Shown in pieces: positions 2,495 to 11,660 of a DNA stretch of 64,000 nucleotides. Both the position numbers and the translations under genes were made by a program. How positions within the stretch are numbered: the first letter of the stretch is position 1; every line of letters begins with the position of its first letter. Source of the DNA: Anatilimnocola aggregata (GTDB lineage: Bacteria > Planctomycetota > Planctomycetia > Pirellulales > Pirellulaceae); the NCBI RefSeq assembly GCF_007747655.1, contig NZ_CP036274.1, forward strand, positions 1,488,001 to 1,552,000, given 5' to 3'. The notes below the pieces were generated by a model. It made no database searches. It was not told the DNA's origin and saw only the letters and a program-made list of their open reading frames with translations.

Positions 2495-3373
2495 TCACAC
2501 AGTATCCGAGTTCACCGGCTTCAGCGTCTTGACGATTACGTCGAACGAAACTGGCCGGGCATTGGGGTCCGCTTGAATGCACTGCATGATCGTGCGGGCC
2601 AGCGTGCGGTTTAGGTTGGGGACAAGCTCGAGAATCTCTTGCGGCGGCTTCGCATCGTGCTGCAGAGCACCCTTGCCCGTCGTGTCGCCCGAAGGCCAGG
2701 GGAACTCGCCGGCGCACAGTTGATAGGCGGTCACGCCGAATGAGAAGATGTCGACGCGATGGTCGGTTGTTTTGCGGCGAACAATCTCGGGGGCCATATA
2801 GAGCGGAGTCCCCGTGCGATTGCCAGGGAGCCAATACTCTTTCTGATTGGGCACCGTGAGTCCAAAGTCGATGAGCTTGAGCGATTTGCAGTCGGGCGCG
2901 ACGATAAAGTTGCGCGGGCAAATGTCGCGGTGAATGAAGCCCGCCTTGTGCACCGCATCGAGGGCTTCGGCCATCTCGCGCACCAATTCATGATGATGCC
3001 CCACGAGCTTCAATTCGCCCTGCTTAAGCAGTACGTTCATGCCGAGGCCGGGAACGAACTCCATCAGGATGTATTGCCGGCCATCTTTGGCGGTGCCGTG
3101 TTCGAACGTATCGACAATCCGCGGATGCTTCAGCTGCGCCGCGATCTTCCCTTCGCTGGGCTTGTTGAGACCCTTGAAGCGAGCTTCGAAGACAGCGGTC
3201 TTTTCGGTGTCGAGAATCTTGAGCCCCACCGTTTTGCCGGTGGTGTGATCGAGGGCCATGTGAAAATTCGACATGGTGCCGTTGATCGCTTCGCGCAAGA
3301 TCTGAAAGCGCTCGCCGATGTCGGTTCGCTTGTCCGCGAACATACCGCGGAGTGAATCGAAGATACTGGCCAT
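2495..3373 (-). CDS. Ser/Thr protein kinase (single domain)
   Basis: A compact 292-aa eukaryotic-like kinase without a transmembrane segment or C-terminal sensor, so probably cytoplasmic. Visible motifs are the ATP-anchoring lysine in 'VGLKIL', the catalytic loop 'HRDICPRN', the 'DFG' metal site and the 'APEIV' activation-segment end. The glycine-rich loop is degenerate ('AINGTMSNFHMAL' where GxGxxG is usual), but the HRD, N and DFG residues are intact, so activity is likely. The start at 3373 was chosen because the kinase fold begins shortly after it; an extension to 3505 would add 44 basic low-complexity residues. It runs convergent to the DUF1559 gene. Confidence 0.85.
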   Translation of the reverse strand: MASIFDSLRGMFADKRTDIGERFQILREAINGTMSNFHMALDHTTGKTVGLKILDTEKTAVFEARFKGLNKPSEGKIAAQLKHPRIVDTFEHGTAKDGRQYILMEFVPGLGMNVLLKQGELKLVGHHHELVREMAEALDAVHKAGFIHRDICPRNFIVAPDCKSLKLIDFGLTVPNQKEYWLPGNRTGTPLYMAPEIVRRKTTDHRVDIFSFGVTAYQLCAGEFPWPSGDTTGKGALQHDAKPPQEILELVPNLNRTLARTIMQCIQADPNARPVSFDVIVKTLKPVNSDTV

Positions 3374-3541
3374 AGAAGAGAGTGGTGCGCTTGCGCGCGA
3401 TAAGCGTTGCCTCTGTTGCCGGGCGAGCGTTCCGTTGGCAGTCGCTCGGCAAGCGTCCGTGCTATTCCTATCTTTCACTCTAGGCTGGCGCAGGCTGCTG
3501 AACAAGCGTGGTTCGCGCGCGGTATCTTCAACCAGTCTTCA

Positions 3542-4588
3542 TCACACCATCACCGCCCGGTGCGTCGTTTCATAGGTGCTGAGCACTGCTTCCGGTCGCT
3601 GGGTGAGGTTGATTTCGCGGAAGGCTTCGCTGCAGACGAGGAAGGCATCGACAATTTGCGGGTCGAAGTGGCGGCCCGCTTGTTCGCCGATCATCTGCAC
3701 CGCCTGCTCGTGCGGGAAGGCATCTTTATAGACTCGCTTGGTCGTCAGCGCGTCGTAGACATCGGCCACAGCCACAATGCGGCCGCAGAGGGGAATGTCT
3801 TTGCCGGCTAGCCCCTGAGGATAGCCGGTGCCATCGAACTTTTCGTGATGCGTGAGGGCAATATCGCGGGCCATGCGAAGGAATTTGGCACCGGGATACT
3901 TGTCGAGCGCTGCCTGCAGCGTGTCGGCCCCGATCTTTGTATGCCGCTTCATCACGTCGAACTCTTCCGGCGTGAAACGACCCGGCTTGAGGAGGATTGC
4001 GTCGGGAATGCCGACCTTACCAATATCGTGCAGCGGGCTGGTCTGCTGAATGAGGTGGATGAACTCGCGGTCGATCTCCACTTGGAACATCCCCTGCTGA
4101 TATAAATACCGCGCCAAGCAACCGCAGTACTTTTGCACGCGCTCGAGATGTTCGCCGGTATCGGTATCGCGACTTTCGGCAAGGCGGGCTAGCGCAAAGA
4201 TCGTGACGTCGCGGGTTTCTAATCCCAAGATTCGTTCGCCCGCGCGAACGCGCAGGATCAACTCCGGCGGATGAAACGGCTTGACGATAAAGTCGTCGGC
4301 CCCAGCCGCCAGTCCCTGAACGATCTCGTCGTTGCGACGGTGACTGGTGAGGAGCACGAAATAGATGTATTGCTCGAACTCGCCGCTGCGTACCGCGCGG
4401 CATAGTTCGAGGCCGGTCATGCCGGGCATATCCCAATCGCTGATGACGAGACGAACGGGATGCTGACGCAGGGTTTCGAGTGCTTCGCGACCATTGCTGG
4501 CCGTGATCACTTCGAACCCCGAACGCTTGAGCGTGTGCTCGAGCATCGCGAGTGCGATTTCGTCGTCGTCGACAATTAATGCAAGCAT
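3542..4588 (-). CDS. Response regulator with HD-GYP c-di-GMP phosphodiesterase domain
   Basis: RpfG-type regulator of 348 aa. Residues 1-120 are a receiver domain with the acidic pocket DDD (7-9), probable phosphoacceptor Asp51 in 'DWDMPG' and Lys103 in 'VKPF'. Residues about 125-330 are an HD-GYP domain with the HD pair at 187-188 (HDIGK), HHE at 247-249 and the 'DGTGYP' signature at 252-257, all needed for metal binding and c-di-GMP hydrolysis. It lies 38 nt downstream of the Amt-histidine kinase gene on the same strand and is its obvious partner: phosphotransfer from the kinase's HPt would set c-di-GMP turnover according to ammonium. Confidence 0.93.
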   Translation of the reverse strand: MLALIVDDDEIALAMLEHTLKRSGFEVITASNGREALETLRQHPVRLVISDWDMPGMTGLELCRAVRSGEFEQYIYFVLLTSHRRNDEIVQGLAAGADDFIVKPFHPPELILRVRAGERILGLETRDVTIFALARLAESRDTDTGEHLERVQKYCGCLARYLYQQGMFQVEIDREFIHLIQQTSPLHDIGKVGIPDAILLKPGRFTPEEFDVMKRHTKIGADTLQAALDKYPGAKFLRMARDIALTHHEKFDGTGYPQGLAGKDIPLCGRIVAVADVYDALTTKRVYKDAFPHEQAVQMIGEQAGRHFDPQIVDAFLVCSEAFREINLTQRPEAVLSTYETTHRAVMV

Positions 4589-4626
4589 ATCTGTCCTGCC
4601 CCAGATACTCTTCCGTAAAACAACAC

Positions 4627-7600
4627 TTAGGCAACGCCCGATTCAGTGACCAGGCTTCTCTGTAACTGTTCGAGCGCCGATTCCGTTTGCGTCGCCGCCT
4701 GTCGAAGTTCGACAAGCAGCGCCGGTAGCTCCGTGGTCTCGCGTCGCTTGGCGAGATCTTCCAACCCGCGGGCCACAATCAGCAATTGATGGGCTTCCAG
4801 GTTGGCTGACATCCCGGCGAGGGCGTGGGCCGCTCGCGAGAGTGCTTCGAAATCTGTCTGGTCCGCCGCGGCCACAATGCTCATGACATCGGCGGGAATC
4901 CGGACCAAAGCCTTACCAAGCACACGCTGCAAGAAGCTGTCGTCATGCATGCAACGGGCGCGAAGTGGAGGCACATCCACGACGGCAATCACCGGTGCCT
5001 GGCTGTCAGCTTCGGGAACTGCGGCCAAAGTCGCGGCGACTTCGACTTTTCCTTCAACCGCTCCTTCTGCTGGTCGATCGATTTGAGCTAGCAGGTTCTC
5101 AATCGCGTCAATCAGCGTGGTGGGATTGATCGGTTTCGTAACGTAGCCATCCATGCCCGCCGCGAGACAACGTTCACGATCGCCGGCAACTGCGTTGGCA
5201 GTTAGCGCGATGATCGGTAGCCGTTTTTGGTTGTCGTCTTTGGCTTCGTTTGTGCGGATGGCACGAGTCGTTTCAAACCCATCCATCTCCGGCATCTGGC
5301 AATCCATCAGCACCAGATCGAAAACTTGCTTCTGAACTTCATCGAAGGCCCAGCGGCCATTCGAGACGAGTTGGCAATCGAAGCCGGCCGCGGCCAGAAT
5401 CTCCGAGACCACTTGTTGATTCACTTCGTTGTCTTCGGCGACCAGGATCTTCGTATCCCGCTTTTTTGCCGGTTTACTTCGCACAGGGGCGTTGAGCGGC
5501 TTCGTACTACTTGCGCGTTGGGGGCCGAACATCTCGACCACGATATCGAACAGCTTCGATTGGCGAACTGGCTTCGGCAAGCAGGCCGAAAGGCCTGACC
5601 GAGCGAGCCGAGGATCGTCGAACAGCGTGCCCGAAGAGCTGAGCATCACCAGGCGCGCCGCTTCGTAGTCGGTATTCAGACGAATGGCTCGGGCTAACTC
5701 GAGTCCGTCCATGCCGGGCATGTTAAAGTCGAGCAGCACGAGTTGGAACGGACGATTTTGGCTCTTGCCCATCGCCAGTTTTTCGAGTGCTTCGCGGCCG
5801 CCGCAGACACTTTCGAGCGCGAGGCCCCAGCTGCCGAATTGTTCGTGTAGGAGCTCGCGATTGGTCTGGTTGTCGTCGACGGCCAGCACGCGAATGTTGG
5901 CCAGTTCTTGCGGCATGATCAGCCGGCGCTGTTGCTCTAGCGGTTGCTTCTTCAGCGGCAATGTGAACCAGAATTGCGAACCCTTGTTGAGCACGCTGTT
6001 GACGCCGATTTCGCCGCCAAAGAGTCCGACGAGTTCGCGGCAAATCGCCAGGCCGAGCCCGGTGCCGCCGTACTTGCGCGTCGTCGAAATATCGACTTGC
6101 GAGAACGAGCGGAACAATCGGTCAGTCCGATCGGCGGGAATGCCGATGCCGGTATCTTCGACACAGAAGCGAATCTGCACGTGCTCTTCGCCGCCATCTG
6201 GTTGCTTCTCATCGAGCGTGGCTCGCAGCACCACTTGCCCACGCGTCGTGAACTTGAGCGCGTTGTTGAGCAGGTTGACGACGATCTGCCTCAGCCGGTC
6301 GGGATCGCCATGCACACTGGCCGGCAACTCGGGACAGATGTGACAGACGAGCTCTAGCCCCTTGTCGGCGGCCCGTTCGGCGAACAGTTCGGCGGTGTCT
6401 TCGAGCAGAGCGTGCAGATCGAAATCGGTATGATCGAGTTCCAGCTTACCGGCTTCGATCTTTGAGAAATCGAGAATGTCGTTGACCAATGTCAGCAGCG
6501 TATCGGCCGAGTTCTTCGCCACGCGGGCATAGCGCTGCTGCTGCTGAGACATGTGCGTCCCTTGCAGCAGTTCGAGCATGCCGATCACACCATTGAGCGG
6601 CGTGCGAATCTCGTGGCTCATGCGGGCGAGGAATTCACTCTTCGCCGAGCTGGCGGCAAGCGCCGCTTCTTTCTGTTGAATCAGTTCCTGCCCTTGCTTC
6701 CGCTCGCTGATGTCTTCGACGGTGCCTTCGTAGTACTTCAGATTGCCCTGCGCATCGCGAATGACGCGGGCATTCTCCGAAATCCAAATCACCTTGCCAT
6801 CGGCGCGAAAGACTTGCGACTCGAAATTCCGCACCACACCTTCTGCTTTAATTTGATCGGCGAAGTCTTGCCGGCGCTTCGGGTCGACATACAACTGATG
6901 CTGAATATCGCGAATCGCCTTCTGCATATCGCCAACCGACTCGTAGCCATAGATCCGCGCGAGCGTGGGATTCGCACTCAAGTACTGACCATCGGGAGTC
7001 GTTTGAAAAATTCCTTCGACCGCGTTCTCGAAAATGCTGCGATACTTCTCTTCGGCCGTCCGCAGGGCTTGCATCACTTCTTCGCGACTCCGAATTTCAT
7101 CTTGAGCCCGCTCGACGACGCGATTGTATTGCAGGGCAATCTGCCCCACTTCAGTGTGCGGTTCTACTTCCACAGCCCGCGTGAAGTCTCCCGTCAAACG
7201 CTGATCTTCCATCTCGTGCAGCAGATCGACCAGCGGAGTCGACGCTTGATGTTCCGAGTGATTGAGTCCAGCCAACTCTTCGGCCGCTGTGACTCGCAAC
7301 CGCATCAGGCGATTCACGCCGAAGAGCACGACATAGCCAAATCCCAAACCCCAAGCGAGGCAGGTGAGCACACCGGCACTTTGAATCAGCAGTTGCCAAC
7401 CGCGCGAGCCACTCTCAAAGGTCGACACATCGCCGAACAGCGCCACGGCCAATGTGCCCCAAGCGCCGCAGAAGCCATGCACCGGCACAGCACCCACCGC
7501 ATCGTCAATTTTGAATCGTTCCAATTGCCACGCGACAAACACGCTCAGCGCTCCGCCGATGGCACCAATGGCCAAGGCCGCGGCAGGGTCCACGATATTG

Positions 7601-8436
7601 CAACTGGCAGTCACCGAAACTAATCCGGCGAGCACACCGTTCATCAGCAGAGGCACATCGGGCCGGCGCAGCATGGGCCAGGCAACCGCGAGTGCGGCAA
7701 TACCCCCCGTGGCAGCAGCCAGGTTTGTATTGAGCAGAATCGTCGGAATCGAGGCATTCACGGCGAACGTGCTGCCCCCGTTAAAGCCGAACCAACCGAA
7801 CCACAGCAAGAACACGCCGAGCGTTGTCAGCGGCAAATTGAAACCATGAATCGGCGGCTTGCCTGGCTCGAACTGTCCCTGCCGTTTACCCAGGACCAGG
7901 ATTGCAGCCAGCGACAACCAGCCACCCAGCGAGTGAACCACTGTTGAACCGGCAAAGTCGATGAAGCCGAGCTTCCGCAACCAACCGAAGCTGTCGGTTC
8001 CCGGCAATCCGCCCCAAGCCCAGTGGCCAAAGATCGGATAGAAGAGTCCGCTCACGAGGACGCTGATCACGACATAGGACGAGAACCGCATCCGTTCGGC
8101 AACCGCGCCGCTGATGATCGTGGTGCTCGTTCCGCAGAAGACCAACTGAAAGAAGAGGAACGACAGCAACCAATAGCCACTGCCGCTTTCCGGCAGAAAG
8201 TGATCGGTTCCAAACAGCCCGTAATAACTGGTGCCGAACATCAGGCCGAAGCCCACGGCCCAATACAGCAAACTGGCGATACAGAAGTCGAACAGATTTT
8301 TGATCGCGACGTTAATGCTGTTCTTGGCCCGGACCAAACCGGTTTCCAAGCAACAGAAGCCCGCTTGCATGAGCATCACCAGGCAAGCGCACAACAGCAT
8401 CCAGACGCAGTCGGCGAGTGATTCAGTGGCAGTCAT
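4627..8436 (-). CDS. Ammonium transporter-hybrid histidine kinase fusion (Amt-PAS-HK-REC-REC-HPt)
   Basis: A 1269-aa fusion. Residues 1-380 are an Amt/Mep/Rh channel with 11 or so membrane segments; the twin pore histidines are present (His168 in 'STVVHSLGG', His320 in '[10 protein letters not shown]') and so is Asp160. A linker with HAMP-like features (about 405-455) leads to PAS (460-580), HisKA with His608 (SHEIRTP), a HATPase with 'DTGIGIP' (761-767) and 'GGTGLGL' (790-796), REC1 with Asp903, REC2 with Asp1045, and HPt with His1204 ('HALAGMS'). All phosphorelay residues are therefore intact. Amt-kinase fusions are known from planctomycetes (Kuenenia Ks-Amt5), where the Amt part acts as an ammonium sensor. 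This copy has a full relay and sits with an HD-GYP regulator. No strong ribosome-binding site is seen before the ATG. Confidence 0.95.
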
Positions 8437-8767
8437 GGATATAGACCAAATCGTGAGGTGACGACCGGATCCCTACCGCCAAGTGGAATGCCGAGCCAAT
8501 AGTCGTTTAGGTAAAAGTCAACCAATTCTTCAAGGCGAAATCTTCAAGCTCGCAACCCTAGCTTGTGGATAGCCGCAAGGGTGGATTTTCTCCCAAAGCA
8601 GCCCCGACAAACGTGCGGTCGTAACGCCTGCAACGATTACTTCCCTCCCACCGGCTGATTGACCCAGCAATTGCAGCAGATATCGTGGGACATATTCCGT
8701 GGCCATGTCCGCGGTTTACTGCCCTGTTATGGTCCCCACCTCGGTTCCTCTCCTGGAGATGACTCGC

Positions 8768-9535
8768 ATGACTGTTTCGCGCCGCGCCCTATTATTGGCC
8801 CTGCTCTTCGCAGGCGCTCTACTCCCCGCTTCGCTCGTCGGCCAAGAAGCCAAGACTGAAGTTAAGGCCGAAGCGAAAGCTGAAGCCAAGCCCAACGACG
8901 CCGTCGTTCCCGTTCCCAAAGAAGGGGGCTGGATGATGCGCCACGAGAACTTCAATAAGCGAGTCAAGGAAGGGAAAGTCGACCTGCTGCTGATCGGCGA
9001 CTCCATCACCCAAGGCTGGGAAGGTGCCGGCAAGAAGGTGTGGGAAGAGTTCTATGCCAAGCGGAATGCCGTGAACCTCGGCATCGGTGGCGACCGCACC
9101 CAGCACGTCCTTTGGCGGCTCGACCACGGCAACATCGACGGCATCAAGCCGAAGGCAGCCGTCCTGATGATCGGCACCAATAACTCGGGCAGCAACAGCT
9201 CCGAACAAATTGCCGAAGGGGTGAAGGCCATTGTCGACAAGCTCAAGACCAAGCTTCCCGAGACCAAGATCCTCGTCCTGGCTGTCTTCCCGCGCGGTGC
9301 CAACAAAGACGACCCCCGCCGCAAGGTCAACACGGCTGCCAACGAGATCATCGCCAAGCTGGCCGACGACAAGCAGGTCTTCTTTCTCGACATCGGGCCC
9401 AAGTTCGTCGCCGAAGATGGCACCCTCAGCAAAGAAATCATGCCCGACCTGCTCCACCTCAACGAGAAGAGCTATCGCATCTGGGCCGATTCGATCGAAG
9501 GCAAGCTTGCCCAACTGATGGGCGAGAAGTCCTAG
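8768..9535 (+). CDS. Exported SGNH/GDSL-family esterase
   Basis: A 255-aa secreted hydrolase resembling the platelet-activating-factor acetylhydrolase-like GDSL group. A signal peptide occupies about residues 1-26 (RR followed by a hydrophobic run, cleavage near 'LVGQ'), and a Lys/Ala/Glu-rich linker follows (28-42). The catalytic blocks are visible: 'IGDSITQGW' with Ser79, 'NLGIGGDRTQ' (block II Gly), 'IGTNNSGSN' (block III Asn) and 'DLLHLN' near residues 238-243 (Asp/His). The ATG at 8768 was preferred over the ATGs at 8699 and 8759 because GGAG lies 9 nt upstream and the signal peptide then starts properly. The substrate is unknown; planctomycetes often use these on acylated or acetylated polysaccharides. 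A strong hairpin follows the stop. Confidence 0.88.
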   Translation: MTVSRRALLLALLFAGALLPASLVGQEAKTEVKAEAKAEAKPNDAVVPVPKEGGWMMRHENFNKRVKEGKVDLLLIGDSITQGWEGAGKKVWEEFYAKRNAVNLGIGGDRTQHVLWRLDHGNIDGIKPKAAVLMIGTNNSGSNSSEQIAEGVKAIVDKLKTKLPETKILVLAVFPRGANKDDPRRKVNTAANEIIAKLADDKQVFFLDIGPKFVAEDGTLSKEIMPDLLHLNEKSYRIWADSIEGKLAQLMGEKS

Positions 9536-9556
9536 TCATTCGCTGGCAATCCTTCG

Positions 9557-9580
9557 CCACCGCCCCTGCGGCGGTGGTTT
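9557..9580 (+). terminator. Hairpin terminator after the SGNH esterase gene
   Basis: A perfect 8-bp stem, CCACCGCC/GGCGGTGG, with a 5-nt loop begins 21 nt after the stop codon and is followed by a T-rich stretch (TTTATTGGCTTTT). This is a good intrinsic terminator for the gene to its left. Confidence 0.75.
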
Positions 9581-10183
9581 ATTGGCTTTTGCCCTACCCG
9601 GTGGCTTAGTGGCGACGAACCGTCCCTTGAGCCCGCACTCAATGCTCTGTGGGAACCGATCGCCCATCGCGCCACTCTCTCTTCGTTGCCGTCACTTTCT
9701 GGCCGAATAGTGCCTGAAATTTCGGAAATTCTCCCTTGTGGAAACTTTTGCGAATCACCAACCAGTTGCCCAGCATCGACTTGCGCGAATGCTGGCAGGA
9801 AATTTCCATAATTCTCGTTTTCGCGCATTCGACAATCCGTTACCAGCCTTTGACTTACGCACATTTGCAGCCGAAAAGTTTCAGATTCAATTTCCAGAAT
9901 GGCTCGTTTTGCACTCAGCCCCGCTGGTAACCTGGCTCAACTTCTGACCCATTCGCCAATCCCACAAGGCGAAACTCGACGCCATAGTCAACAGCCACTC
10001 ATTACTGACTTACGTCGAACTTTCGCCACCACAATACGCAATTTGTGTGCCATTCATCACAAAATTCTACCGAATTTTCAAAGATCTCCCGCTCTACTTA
10101 GATGCGCGACCAGGGACTAGTCTGGTCACTGTTACCAAGGTTTTGTAACCATTCACGCTGGCAAACCAGCTGCGGCGGGGTCG
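9581..10183. other. Gene-free stretch
   Basis: About 600 nt with no convincing reading frame. It is more AT-rich than its surroundings, and the frames that stay open for 60-70 codons have no ribosome-binding site and no recognisable protein sequence. It runs into the inverted-repeat area starting at 10184. Confidence 0.5.
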
Positions 10184-10245
10184 GGAGGTTTTTCGGGCCA
10201 GTTGACCCTGTCTTCAGCCGCCCGGCGACGGCCCGAAAATCCTCC
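10184..10245. repeat. Imperfect inverted repeat, 16-nt arms
   Basis: Arms 10184-10199 (GGAGGTTTTTCGGGCC) and 10230-10245 (GGCCCGAAAATCCTCC) pair with one mismatch around a 30-nt GC-rich centre. Pairing continues outward more weakly. It sits beside a second, larger inverted repeat, so the area 10184-10451 looks like a compact non-coding repeat element. Confidence 0.65.
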
Positions 10246-10275
10246 TGACGCCAAACGTGCGAATCCCGCAACTTT

Positions 10276-10451
10276 AGGAAACCCGAAGCGTCAGCGAGGA
10301 AAGCGAGCGGGAGGCCCGGAAGCCTATTTCTCTCGTGATTCGTTGAGATGACTCGCGCGGCACCATAGCGAGGGCAACAGCGAATGGTCTAACGATCGCG
10401 ACGGCTCTTCACCGCGATCAGCACGCGCCTCGCTCACGCTTCGGGTTTCCT
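10276..10451. repeat. Dispersed-type inverted repeat, 24-nt arms
   Basis: Arms 10276-10299 and 10428-10451 are reverse complements over 24 nt with a single mismatch; the core is ACCCGAAGCGT(C/G)AGCGAGG. The 128-nt interior has no reading frame. The core resembles short repeats that I recall as frequent between genes of Pirellula-like planctomycetes. A non-autonomous (MITE/REP-like) repeat is the likely nature. Confidence 0.65.
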
Positions 10452-10517
10452 AGCTCGCGATCACTGGCCAGGCTGGGTTAAGATGCCAGCAACACAACTG
10501 GCTCGCAGGCGACCCAC

Positions 10518-11660
10518 GTGAAACTGACGCTCCGCGATCTCTTCTGGCTGATCTTCCTCGCCGCCGTGGCCGTAAGCTGGGGCGTGCAGCACCACCGCGC
10601 TCAAGAGGAACTCGCGACGCAGCGGAATAATCACTGGTTCACCTTCGATCGAAACAAGGGACCAACTCCCGAATCGCTGCGGCGGCGTCAAATCCTCAAG
10701 GAGCTACGCGAGTTCAACGACCAGGATTTACTCGCGAGATTCAACAGGAGTCTTCAGCAAGACAGGACTGTTATCTACACAGACCAACCTGAGTATTCCT
10801 GCTGCCTGACGGAGATGGCCACGCGTGGCCTGTCAACCGAGTTGGAACTCCATCTGAAAGAAAAAACCTTAGTAGCGGGAAGCTGGGTTCCAGAGAACAC
10901 CACCGAGTTAACTGCCTTACGACGGGCACAAGGAAAACCGGACCCGCTCAAGATTACCGTTGGTCCCGGGGCCCAAGGCCCCGGTGGCTACGAACTGGCC
11001 AGTCACCGAATTGAAGTGTTGCTCCAGAATGTTGACGTCGACAATCAACTTGTGCATCACGTCCACTCCCAGGAGCGGAATTACGATCAGTTGTCGCAGT
11101 GGCGTGTGGAACTGAAAGATGTCCATGATCAACCAGTGCCGAATTCCAACTATGTGGATCTAGTACGCGGTGGAACATCTTACCGCAGCCACCTGCAGCG
11201 CGGCGAAACTGAGAAGTATCATTTCGACGTCCGCAAGTACGTAGCGCCACCCGCCACGGGACGTTACCGTTTGCAAGTAATCCTTGGGAGTGAACGTGAC
11301 TACATCGAATACGAACCGGACCTCACCGGGCTAATCGTCATTAGGTCGGAGCCAGTCTGGGTCGACGTGGTGAATCATGGTCATTGGGACGAGCGGTACT
11401 TGCTCGCTCCGCCGCTCGTTTTGCTCTCGGCGGCGAGCCTGTTCGTGGTGGCTACGACGGTCGCCGGGTTGTGGCGACGACGGTTGATTAAGACCGAAGA
11501 TCTGCCGCCGGCCAAGTTCGCCTGGCGCGACTGGCTGGGCTGGTCCCTCGCGATTATCCTCCTCGCCGGTTGGCTGATCGATGTGGGTTACCTCCGGACC
11601 CAACTCGCTGAGCGAGACGAACGAGAAGCCCACTGGACGATGAAACTGGCGAATCCTTAA
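10518..11660 (+). CDS. Hypothetical membrane protein with large exported domain
   Basis: I do not recognise this 380-aa protein. Residues 1-25 form a signal anchor of a style common in planctomycetes (MKLTLRDLFWLIFLAAVAVS), followed by a coiled, charged stretch and a long extracytoplasmic domain (about 30-285). Two further hydrophobic segments occur at about 295-315 and 340-362, with a short arginine/lysine-rich cytoplasmic loop between them. The GTG at 10518 is taken as start because the hydrophobic anchor begins immediately after it; only a weak AGG precedes it. The middle region 'GGYELASHRIEVLLQNVDV...' reads like a beta-sandwich, but I cannot assign it. Upstream lies the repeat area, downstream purK. 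Confidence 0.75.
   Translation: MKLTLRDLFWLIFLAAVAVSWGVQHHRAQEELATQRNNHWFTFDRNKGPTPESLRRRQILKELREFNDQDLLARFNRSLQQDRTVIYTDQPEYSCCLTEMATRGLSTELELHLKEKTLVAGSWVPENTTELTALRRAQGKPDPLKITVGPGAQGPGGYELASHRIEVLLQNVDVDNQLVHHVHSQERNYDQLSQWRVELKDVHDQPVPNSNYVDLVRGGTSYRSHLQRGETEKYHFDVRKYVAPPATGRYRLQVILGSERDYIEYEPDLTGLIVIRSEPVWVDVVNHGHWDERYLLAPPLVLLSAASLFVVATTVAGLWRRRLIKTEDLPPAKFAWRDWLGWSLAIILLAGWLIDVGYLRTQLAERDEREAHWTMKLANP

Follow-up and report, generated by a model that had tools for sequence, protein, structure and literature searches.

A planctomycete Amt hybrid kinase adjoining an HD-GYP regulator: a probable phosphorelay from an ammonium sensor to c-di-GMP turnover

Two adjacent genes in the stretch of 64,000 nucleotides analysed here (the window), from Anatilimnocola aggregata, probably form a phosphorelay, anchored in the membrane and headed by an ammonium sensor, that acts on c-di-GMP turnover. 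The first gene encodes a hybrid kinase with an Amt domain and a C-terminal HPt domain; the second encodes a REC-HD-GYP protein, and the pairing is conserved among planctomycetes.

In the proposed mechanism, the Amt domain would have turned into a receptor, and ammonium binding would alter the HAMP-like linker and the PAS domain, and so kinase activity. H608 would pass its phosphate to a receiver aspartate, D1045 being the likeliest, and from there it would go to H1204 of the HPt domain and on to D51 of the neighbouring REC-HD-GYP protein. This protein would in turn hydrolyse c-di-GMP. As to the sign of the response, phosphorylation turns the phosphodiesterase RpfG on, and a rise of ammonium from zero increases phosphorylation of Ks-Amt5; by these two analogies c-di-GMP would fall in the presence of ammonium, a guess that is only slightly favoured.

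Organization of the gene pair

Both open reading frames are encoded by the minus strand, where the kinase gene lies upstream of the regulator gene with a gap of 38 nt between them. Their features are the following.

4627 to 8436, minus strand: Amt-HAMP-like-PAS-HisKA-HATPase-REC-REC-HPt hybrid sensor kinase gene (1269 aa, ATG start; open reading frame list and Pfam)
7240 to 8406, minus strand: putative Amt sensor domain, residues 11-399 (Pfam Ammonium_transp, 2.6e-115; residues mapped to Ks-Amt5)
7096 to 7248, minus strand: HAMP-like linker, about residues 397-447 (weak Pfam HAMP match)
6697 to 7050, minus strand: PAS domain, residues 463-580 (Pfam PAS match over 463-576)
5950 to 6645, minus strand: HisKA, residues 598-663, with phospho-acceptor H608, and HATPase_c, residues 710-829 (Pfam; H608 in 31 of 31 hybrids)
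5527 to 5889, minus strand: receiver 1, about residues 850-970 (D903, Asp in 26 of 31 hybrids)
5098 to 5448, minus strand: receiver 2, residues 997-1113 (Pfam; D1045 in 31 of 31 hybrids)
4681 to 4905, minus strand: HPt domain, residues 1178-1252 (Pfam Hpt, 5.8e-7; H1204 in 31 of 31 hybrids)
3542 to 4588, minus strand: REC-HD-GYP response regulator gene (348 aa, ATG start; open reading frame list and Pfam)
4247 to 4579, minus strand: receiver domain of the REC-HD-GYP protein, residues 4-114, with D51 (Pfam Response_reg)
3653 to 4183, minus strand: HD-GYP domain, residues 136-312 (Pfam HD_5, 1.7e-30; H187 D188, H216, H247 H248, GYP 255-257, D276)

This organization agrees with an earlier note on the same DNA, which had read Amt, PAS, kinase, two receivers and HPt in the first gene and, 38 nt away, REC-HD-GYP in the next. 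Pfam finds these domains in both frames, including two Response_reg stretches in the hybrid kinase, and alignment places the pore histidines named there, H168 and H320, opposite H171 and H326 of Ks-Amt5 and confirms Asp51 as the receiver aspartate of the HD-GYP protein. Pfam was run on the window proteins and on sets of ten Amt proteins, of six and of nine proteins; other architectures come from custom profiles. Alignment of the 31 distinct hybrids described below shows the three relay residues, H608, D1045 and H1204, to be invariant. HPt position 1207 is alanine in the window and lysine in the other 30 hybrids, a difference that counts against the proposed sensor relay.

The HAMP-like linker was absent from the list of domains drawn up earlier. 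Its Pfam HAMP match (E 0.0044; 17.8 bits for a cut-off of 25) lies under the cut-off, which counts against the proposal. Three of five homologous linkers match Pfam HAMP, the best at 8.6e-5, and the linker resembles those of an Amt-GGDEF, an Amt-MCP and an Amt-PAS-GGDEF-EAL protein.

Conservation of the pairing

Among 31 distinct Amt...HPt hybrids from planctomycete genomes, 27, that of the window included, are directly followed on the same strand by a REC-HD-GYP gene. Two are followed by a REC-PAS-GGDEF-EAL gene with intact GGDEF, EAL and DDFGTG motifs, one by neither, and one lies at a contig edge. The count leaves aside L014 (the same match as L124, G112), the loci L003, L094-L123, L174 and L175 (longer flanks refetched) and the fragments L165, L166 and L173, which are truncated where their contigs stop. 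The earlier note had proposed a conserved neighbourhood as a check, and the answer is strongly positive; an accidental gene pair is rejected, since 27 plus 2 of the 31 hybrids conserve the pairing. L178, the same hybrid without an adjoining regulator, counts against the sensor relay.

The offsets between hybrid and REC-HD-GYP gene range from -218 to +54 nt and equal exactly -4 (a 4-nt overlap) in eight cases; they use the first possible start codon, so that long overlaps are upper limits. Distances between kinase parts agree with those between partners (Mantel r 0.876, with 0 of 2000 shuffles as high). Within the order, the hybrids are found in the family codes f1, f2, f13 and f20, and outside it in f21 and f70. 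On the other hand, the partners of Amt hybrids do not form one clade in the HD-GYP tree (computed without L130 and L131), where the label needs seven changes and the partners of L140 and L145 are placed at a great distance; this counts against the proposal. The 9.0-Mb genome has three HD_5 matches and 71 HATPase_c matches (70 above cut-off), and only the HD_5 of the window is found within 50 kb of a HATPase_c, at 1.8 kb, the other two being at 53 and 67 kb. This rarity, together with the recurrence in 27 of the 31 hybrids, indicates that the pairing is more than chance.

The extent of the unit was considered as well. Neither the downstream Ser/Thr kinase gene (2495-3505) nor the upstream SGNH gene is retained as a member, each being found at 0 of the 30 other hybrid loci at E 1e-3, a threshold at which the REC-HD-GYP protein, as positive control, was matched at all 30. 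Neither gene is present at the G001 locus discussed below. For positions 3480-3560 of the window, which take in the gap beyond the HD-GYP gene, the predicted RNA fold is no better than that of shuffles. Scans gave 12 terminators for 7.3 expected and 3 promoters for 2.0 expected. In a plasmid search with the whole hybrid, none of the 5000 best-scoring records covers 80% of it; the ten plasmid records listed match its PAS/kinase part.

The Amt domain as a candidate ammonium sensor

The Amt domain belongs to the Amt/Mep/Rh family (PF00909; 385.8 bits for a cut-off of 23.2). It keeps the twin pore histidines, the filter residues W141 and S222 and the Phe gate (F100, F218). The second ammonium site of Ks-Amt5 (Q24, E31, N47, D50, T51, T109, T112) reads Q, E, N, D, F, T, S here, Q24, E31, N47 and D50 being the same while T106 and S109 stand for T109 and T112. 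At each of the positions W141, S222, H168, H320, Q24, E31, N47, D50, T106 and S109, between 28 and 31 of the 31 hybrids have the same residue. However, about two thirds of 29 stand-alone Amts share the site (E31 in 20, N47 and D50 in 19, including L010 of the same genome). This counts against a sensor-specific site, and these residues alone were rejected as proof of a sensor.

A tree of Amt domains was built from 112 of 128 rows, 16 near-copies being left out. A clade of 78 rows (SH-aLRT 97, quick tree), in which the window Amt stands, takes in 74 of the 75 Amts whose output domain could be assigned, whereas both other Amts of the window genome (L009, L010) fall outside it; the window Amt thus groups with Amts joined to signalling outputs. 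Its nearest solved chains are an Amt+GGDEF protein (8qj3, 8e-117) and Ks-Amt5 (6eu6, 3e-107), the E. coli-type ammonia channel being far weaker (6e-38).

It may nevertheless be imagined that the domain is still a transporter, a transceptor whose flux is read by the kinase (a mode suggested for yeast Mep2), and not a static binder like Ks-Amt5. We consider this rather unlikely, while ranking it first among the alternatives. The kept twin histidines and filter would suit it. Moreover, F27 alone remains of the bulky residues by which the Ks-Amt5 pore is blocked, Y30 and F34 being L30 and L34 here, so that transport may persist. In the other direction, the window Amt stands in the fused-Amt clade, apart from both stand-alone Amts of its own genome; F27 is retained, a residue also present in 20 of the 29 stand-alone Amts; and position 30 is leucine in 30 of the 31 hybrids, against valine or phenylalanine in 26 of the 29 stand-alone Amts.

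A relay chassis with and without Amt

The relay also exists without Amt. In G001, of the same genus, the orthologous pair is kept but at most 84 residues with one hydrophobic segment replace the Amt domain, which counts against the proposed sensor relay; linker and PAS domain are retained (74% identity from residue 399 on). An Amt-less pair is likewise found in G037, beside G073 of one family. Outside Amt hybrids, an HPt lies directly upstream of 24 of 31 homologous REC-HD-GYP genes, within a hybrid kinase in 8 and as an HPt-matching open reading frame in 16 (31 of 32 full-length rows were examined, G029:777182 being left out). Thus, the HPt/HD-GYP relay would be a conserved chassis with Amt as a plug-in sensor, and ammonium would be one of several inputs.

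The main signal could then be something other than ammonium, sensed through the PAS domain, the linker or the membrane state, with Amt as a leftover or an anchor. The Amt-less pairs of G001 and of G037, as well as the PAS domain set between sensor and kinase in the window, are in its favour. Yet filter, pore histidines and ammonium-site residues are kept at each position in nearly all hybrids, and these hybrids are spread over all six family codes; a decayed anchor should drift, and we regard this possibility as unlikely.

It is tempting to imagine a broader scheme, to which we give an even chance: Planctomycetota would possess a general HPt and REC-HD-GYP chassis whose sensors are swapped by domain exchange, ammonium being a principal input. 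Sensor Amts would have become connected with c-di-GMP enzymes several times and in several ways: through a relay ending in HD-GYP or in GGDEF-EAL, through direct HD-GYP fusion and, in other phyla, by being fused directly with GGDEF or GGDEF-EAL. Within one genus, a pair would later have given up its Amt. Amt-GGDEF, Amt-PAS-GGDEF-EAL and Amt-HD-GYP fusions were indeed found, among them L168 of a related genome, where Amt is fused straight to HD-GYP with both motifs present. If the scheme holds, external ammonium would act on c-di-GMP directly and not by way of PII/GlnK. Because one genus has both an Amt-bearing and an Amt-less form of the pair, it offers a natural sensor-swap experiment that would part the role of Amt from that of the relay, and would render this question testable.

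The HD-GYP partner and its output

By its motifs, the partner is a predicted c-di-GMP phosphodiesterase. The receiver residues D51, T81 and K103 and the HD, HHE and GYP motifs are intact in all 27 REC-HD-GYP partners, the window included, as are the HD pair, the metal ligands and HHExxxGxGYP. Position 143 is aspartate in the window and in 12 of the 27 in all, and glutamate in 15; the other 20 checked metal, HD, GYP and receiver positions are invariant except D9 (25) and D252 (22). A single-sequence AlphaFold model of the protein (P0002) has a mean pLDDT of 41 and is of no use. The genome has ten GGDEF matches in eight frames (nine in seven above cut-off), so that a c-di-GMP system exists; the single, marginal PilZ match of the genome counts against the proposed relay.

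That the protein instead cleaves another cyclic dinucleotide, or binds GGDEF proteins, seems distinctly doubtful. One solved match, 5z7c, is an HD-GYP relative named 3'3'-cGAMP-specific, position 143 varies, and parts of one account describe RpfG as acting also via complexes with GGDEF proteins (PMC3749722). Nevertheless, the other positions are nearly invariant, and the swap for REC-PAS-GGDEF-EAL in 2 of the 31 hybrids and the Amt-GGDEF fusions point to c-di-GMP. Least probable is that the HPt mainly serves a distant regulator, the adjacent HD-GYP being a side branch: L178 would fit, but a c-di-GMP regulator adjoins 29 of the 31 hybrids, kinase and partner trees agree, and the HPt stays upstream of REC-HD-GYP even as a separate frame (16 of 31).

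Comparison with known systems

The closest wiring to that proposed for the window pair is RpfC/RpfG of Xanthomonas, in which, according to the relevant parts of the source, a hybrid kinase with REC and HPt relays phosphate to a REC-HD-GYP c-di-GMP phosphodiesterase encoded in the same operon (PMC3749722). The window pair shares the membrane hybrid kinase, in which REC is joined by an HPt at the C terminus, the adjoining REC-HD-GYP gene and the complete relay residues. It differs in having two receivers and a PAS domain, in the kinase gene coming first, and in a sensor that is an Amt and not the DSF-sensing input region of RpfC. Because of this input domain, the unit is not classed with RpfC/RpfG, although it would work in the same way.

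In Ks-Amt5 of Kuenenia stuttgartiensis (PDB 6eu6), an Amt serves as ammonium receptor for a HisKA kinase; passages of the source give it 679 aa, ending after the kinase, with no PAS or HAMP, and present the response regulator of this type example of Amt-kinases as yet to be identified (PMC5764959). The window protein has the same fusion to a HisKA kinase and the same filter, twin histidines and Q24, E31, N47 and D50. Unlike Ks-Amt5, it continues past the kinase, carries a PAS domain and a HAMP-like linker, and differs at two of the three pore-blocking residues. Compared with Ks-Amt5, the Amt...HPt family supplies an adjoining, conserved candidate regulator and a candidate second messenger.

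The nearest solved relative of the window Amt, PDB 8qj3/8qj4/8qpf, is by sequence a single chain of Amt and GGDEF, so that its output also lies in c-di-GMP metabolism. We take it to be Sd-Amt1 of Shewanella denitrificans, with a HAMP linker, reportedly described by Pflueger et al. in Sci Adv in 2024. Unlike the window pair, it is one protein with a synthesis domain and no phosphorelay. The earlier note had taken a direct link from an Amt sensor, by a complete phosphorelay, to c-di-GMP breakdown to be undescribed as far as its author knew. The 8qj3 chain and the fusions Amt-GGDEF, Amt-PAS-GGDEF-EAL and Amt-HD-GYP already join Amt to c-di-GMP enzymes by sequence, and the wiring is that of RpfC/RpfG. 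An Amt link to c-di-GMP is therefore not categorically new; the novelty of the window pair is the version in which a phosphorelay leads from the Amt to c-di-GMP breakdown.

A conserved two-gene unit

The window, positions 1488001-1552000 of C1 in a 9.0-Mb genome of the Planctomycetota, holds a hybrid sensor kinase that opens with an Amt domain and ends with an HPt domain, followed by a REC-HD-GYP response regulator (residue numbers are those of each protein):

4627-8436, minus: hybrid kinase ORF, 1269 aa (Amt 11-399; PAS 463-580; HisKA 598-663; HATPase_c 710-829; two receivers; HPt 1178-1252)
3542-4588, minus: REC-HD-GYP ORF, 348 aa, 38 nt downstream of the hybrid ORF

The ORFs, their common strand and their spacing agree with the domain reading of the earlier note, and residue mapping bears out its H168 and H320 in the hybrid and Asp51 in the HD-GYP protein. 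The genome has three HD_5 and 71 HATPase_c matches, and the sole pair of them less than 50 kb apart is that of the window. It also has ten GGDEF matches in eight frames (nine in seven frames above cut-off) and a single marginal PilZ match. A Ser/Thr protein kinase gene (2495-3505, minus) lies 36 nt past the HD-GYP gene on the same strand.

Amt searches covered three overlapping sets: 60 relatives including the genome itself; the order, with 396 genomes searched at E 1e-115 and four candidates scored in each; and the phylum, with 392 genomes at E 1e-135. The full hybrid occurs in at least 26 of the 396 order genomes. These 26, one from genome G020 in the 60-relative search and four from the phylum search give 31 distinct hybrids, window counted. 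The adjacency on which the earlier note wanted a check is indeed conserved: directly downstream on the same strand stands a REC-HD-GYP gene in 27 of the 31, and a REC-PAS-GGDEF-EAL gene in two loci of one genus (hybrids L162, 8746-15006, plus, and L163, 8611-14849, plus). One hybrid (L178) has no adjacent regulator, the next ORF being convergent and without such domains, and one (L198) meets the contig end. At none of the 30 other hybrid loci is there a match to the window's flanking Ser/Thr kinase or SGNH gene, whereas the REC-HD-GYP protein matches at all 30. Thus, the conserved unit comprises two genes.

The genes overlap in 15 of 29 hybrid-to-regulator offsets, the longer overlaps depending on the choice of the first possible start codon. 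The overlap is exactly 4 nt in eight, resembling translational coupling. Tree distances of the partner follow those of the kinase part (r=0.876) and of the Amt part (r=0.684), neither value being reached in 2000 shuffles.

Relay and catalytic residues

H608, D1045 and H1204 are kept in 31/31 hybrids, against 26/31 for D903 of receiver 1; receiver 2 is therefore likely to carry the relay. HPt position 1207 is A in the window and K in all 30 other hybrids. In the 27 HD-GYP partners, D7, D8, D51, T81, K103, H147, H187, D188, K191, H216, H247, H248, E249, G253, G255, Y256, P257, D276 and R285 are invariant. Variable positions are D9 (D in 25/27), D252 (D in 22/27) and 143 (E in 15, D in 12 including the window). 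Among solved structures, 4r8z and 4mcw come closest to the HD-GYP domain.

The Amt domain

The solved chains nearest to the Amt domain are 8qj3/8qpf (8e-117) and 6eu6 (3e-107), the Amt-histidine kinase Ks-Amt5 of Kuenenia stuttgartiensis; more distant are Af-Amt1 (2b2f, 4e-57) and, further off, 2nmr (6e-38), an ammonia channel. The 8qj3 protein bears a GGDEF domain, its residues 9-628 aligning with an Amt-GGDEF query. A quick-method tree covering 112 Amt domains places 74 of the 75 Amts with an assigned output domain in one clade of 78 rows (SH-aLRT 97), the exception being an Amt-MCP protein of Orenia (L090). The remaining four rows of this clade comprise one protein truncated at a contig end and three long ones to which no output was assigned. 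The two other Amts of the window's genome fall outside.

The ammonium-site residues and the blocking residues F27, Y30 and F34 are described for Ks-Amt5 (PMC5764959). The window Amt keeps Q24, E31, N47, D50 and T106 of the site, with S109 for T112 and F51 for T51; the blockers become F27, L30 and L34. Since Q24, E31, N47 or D50 also occur in 18-20 of 29 stand-alone Amts, these residues characterise a broader branch of Amts. At position 30, 30/31 hybrids have L and 26/29 stand-alone Amts have V or F. The Amt-to-PAS stretch can be aligned with its counterparts in one Amt-GGDEF, one Amt-MCP and one Amt-PAS-GGDEF-EAL protein. The linker has a weak HAMP resemblance (E 0.0044 in the window, below cut-off; 8.6e-5 for the best of five linkers).

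Other arrangements of Amt and HD-GYP

The neighbourhood of Amt-kinases lacking HPt differs from that of the HPt-bearing hybrids. HD-GYP lies within 3 kb in 5 of 39. Three of the 39 (L016, L144, L200) sit so close to a contig end that hardly any flank is left. REC-HD-GYP directly follows two Amt-HK genes (L137, L196). An HD-GYP ORF lies 254 nt downstream of L160 and 1511 nt downstream of L161. For the Amt-PASx3-HK protein L147, HD-GYP is called on both sides, one call being doubtful with a very long branch in the HD-GYP tree.

Locus L168 (7976-10087, plus) encodes a single 703-aa protein in which Amt is fused to HD-GYP, with HDVGK and HHERFDGKGYP intact; a search of 43 genomes from its family gave no further full-length match. 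Fusions of Amt to a SpoIIE-type phosphatase occur in Pelagibacteraceae, called by Pfam for L050 and by an own-built profile for L053, L054, L058 and L059; a SpoIIE-like call was also obtained in L143, from the window's order. In genome G022, two Amt genes of equal score lie 7 kb apart (C12:193611 and 200756), possibly a recent duplication.

The window's genome has a second Amt/c-di-GMP neighbourhood (L009, G000:C1:5526000-5534000, 3025-7890), where an AmtB-like gene precedes an ORF that is presumably GlnK-like, with an HD-GYP and a GGDEF gene beside, divergent.

The predicted relay without Amt

The REC-HD-GYP query matches 49/60 relatives at 1e-30, many over the HD-GYP part alone; the match spans receiver and HD-GYP in 27/60, and the Amt hybrid is found in 5/60. 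Among 31 fetched non-Amt homologues, eight directly follow an HPt-bearing hybrid kinase without Amt, 16 follow an HPt-matching ORF (Pfam-checked in one, L249) and seven follow neither. In five of the 16 (L248, L249, L252, L254, L256), a very long HK-REC ORF of about 1780-2080 aa, in some cases cut by the stretch, adjoins the HPt ORF and REC-HD-GYP. These loci possibly carry this relay in split form.

G001, a genome of the window's genus, has the pair without Amt:

L239 (G001:C1:4463000-4478000), 6559-10554, minus: orthologue of the pair, without Amt

The HD-GYP proteins are 89% identical. The kinases share 74% identity over everything after residue 398, from the linker and PAS through the kinase domains and receivers to the HPt, all of which are retained; residues 1-398 are substituted by at most 84 residues bearing one hydrophobic segment. 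No Amt match was obtained in 15 kb around the locus (tblastn, 1e-4), and the tested neighbouring window genes are absent from it. An ORF close to the pair is, we presume, FliM-like.

In the HD-GYP tree, whose bootstrap is not fully settled, window and G001 are sisters (100/99) in a clade otherwise Amt-paired (95/88). A second sister pair (100/96) joins G037, which lacks Amt, to the Amt-bearing G073. The Amt label requires seven changes, at least four forced by starred branches, so the Amt-paired regulators do not form one clade. The simplest reading is that G001 lost its Amt, although other lineages may instead have gained theirs.

Proposed mechanism and known systems

By analogy with the families concerned, ammonium would change the Amt domain, and this change would pass through linker and PAS to H608. 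Phosphate would then travel from H608 to D1045, H1204 and D51 of the HD-GYP protein, whose HD-GYP domain would lower c-di-GMP. The sign is a guess, drawn from two observations: phosphorylation is reported to activate RpfG (PMC3749722), and that of Ks-Amt5 to rise steeply at low ammonium and drop again at high (PMC5764959).

The earlier note held such a link, as far as it knew, to be undescribed. Among the open-access titles and abstract openings listed, none reports an Amt sensor acting on the breakdown of c-di-GMP. The wiring equals that of the Xanthomonas pair RpfC/RpfG, and the sensor principle that of Ks-Amt5. The 8qj3 protein has an equal sensor, but a c-di-GMP synthesis domain as output. 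In Azospirillum, PII is reported to convey nitrogen status to c-di-GMP (PMC7646526). The predicted Amt relay to HD-GYP would thus be a version of a known circuit type, well supported by comparative genomics.
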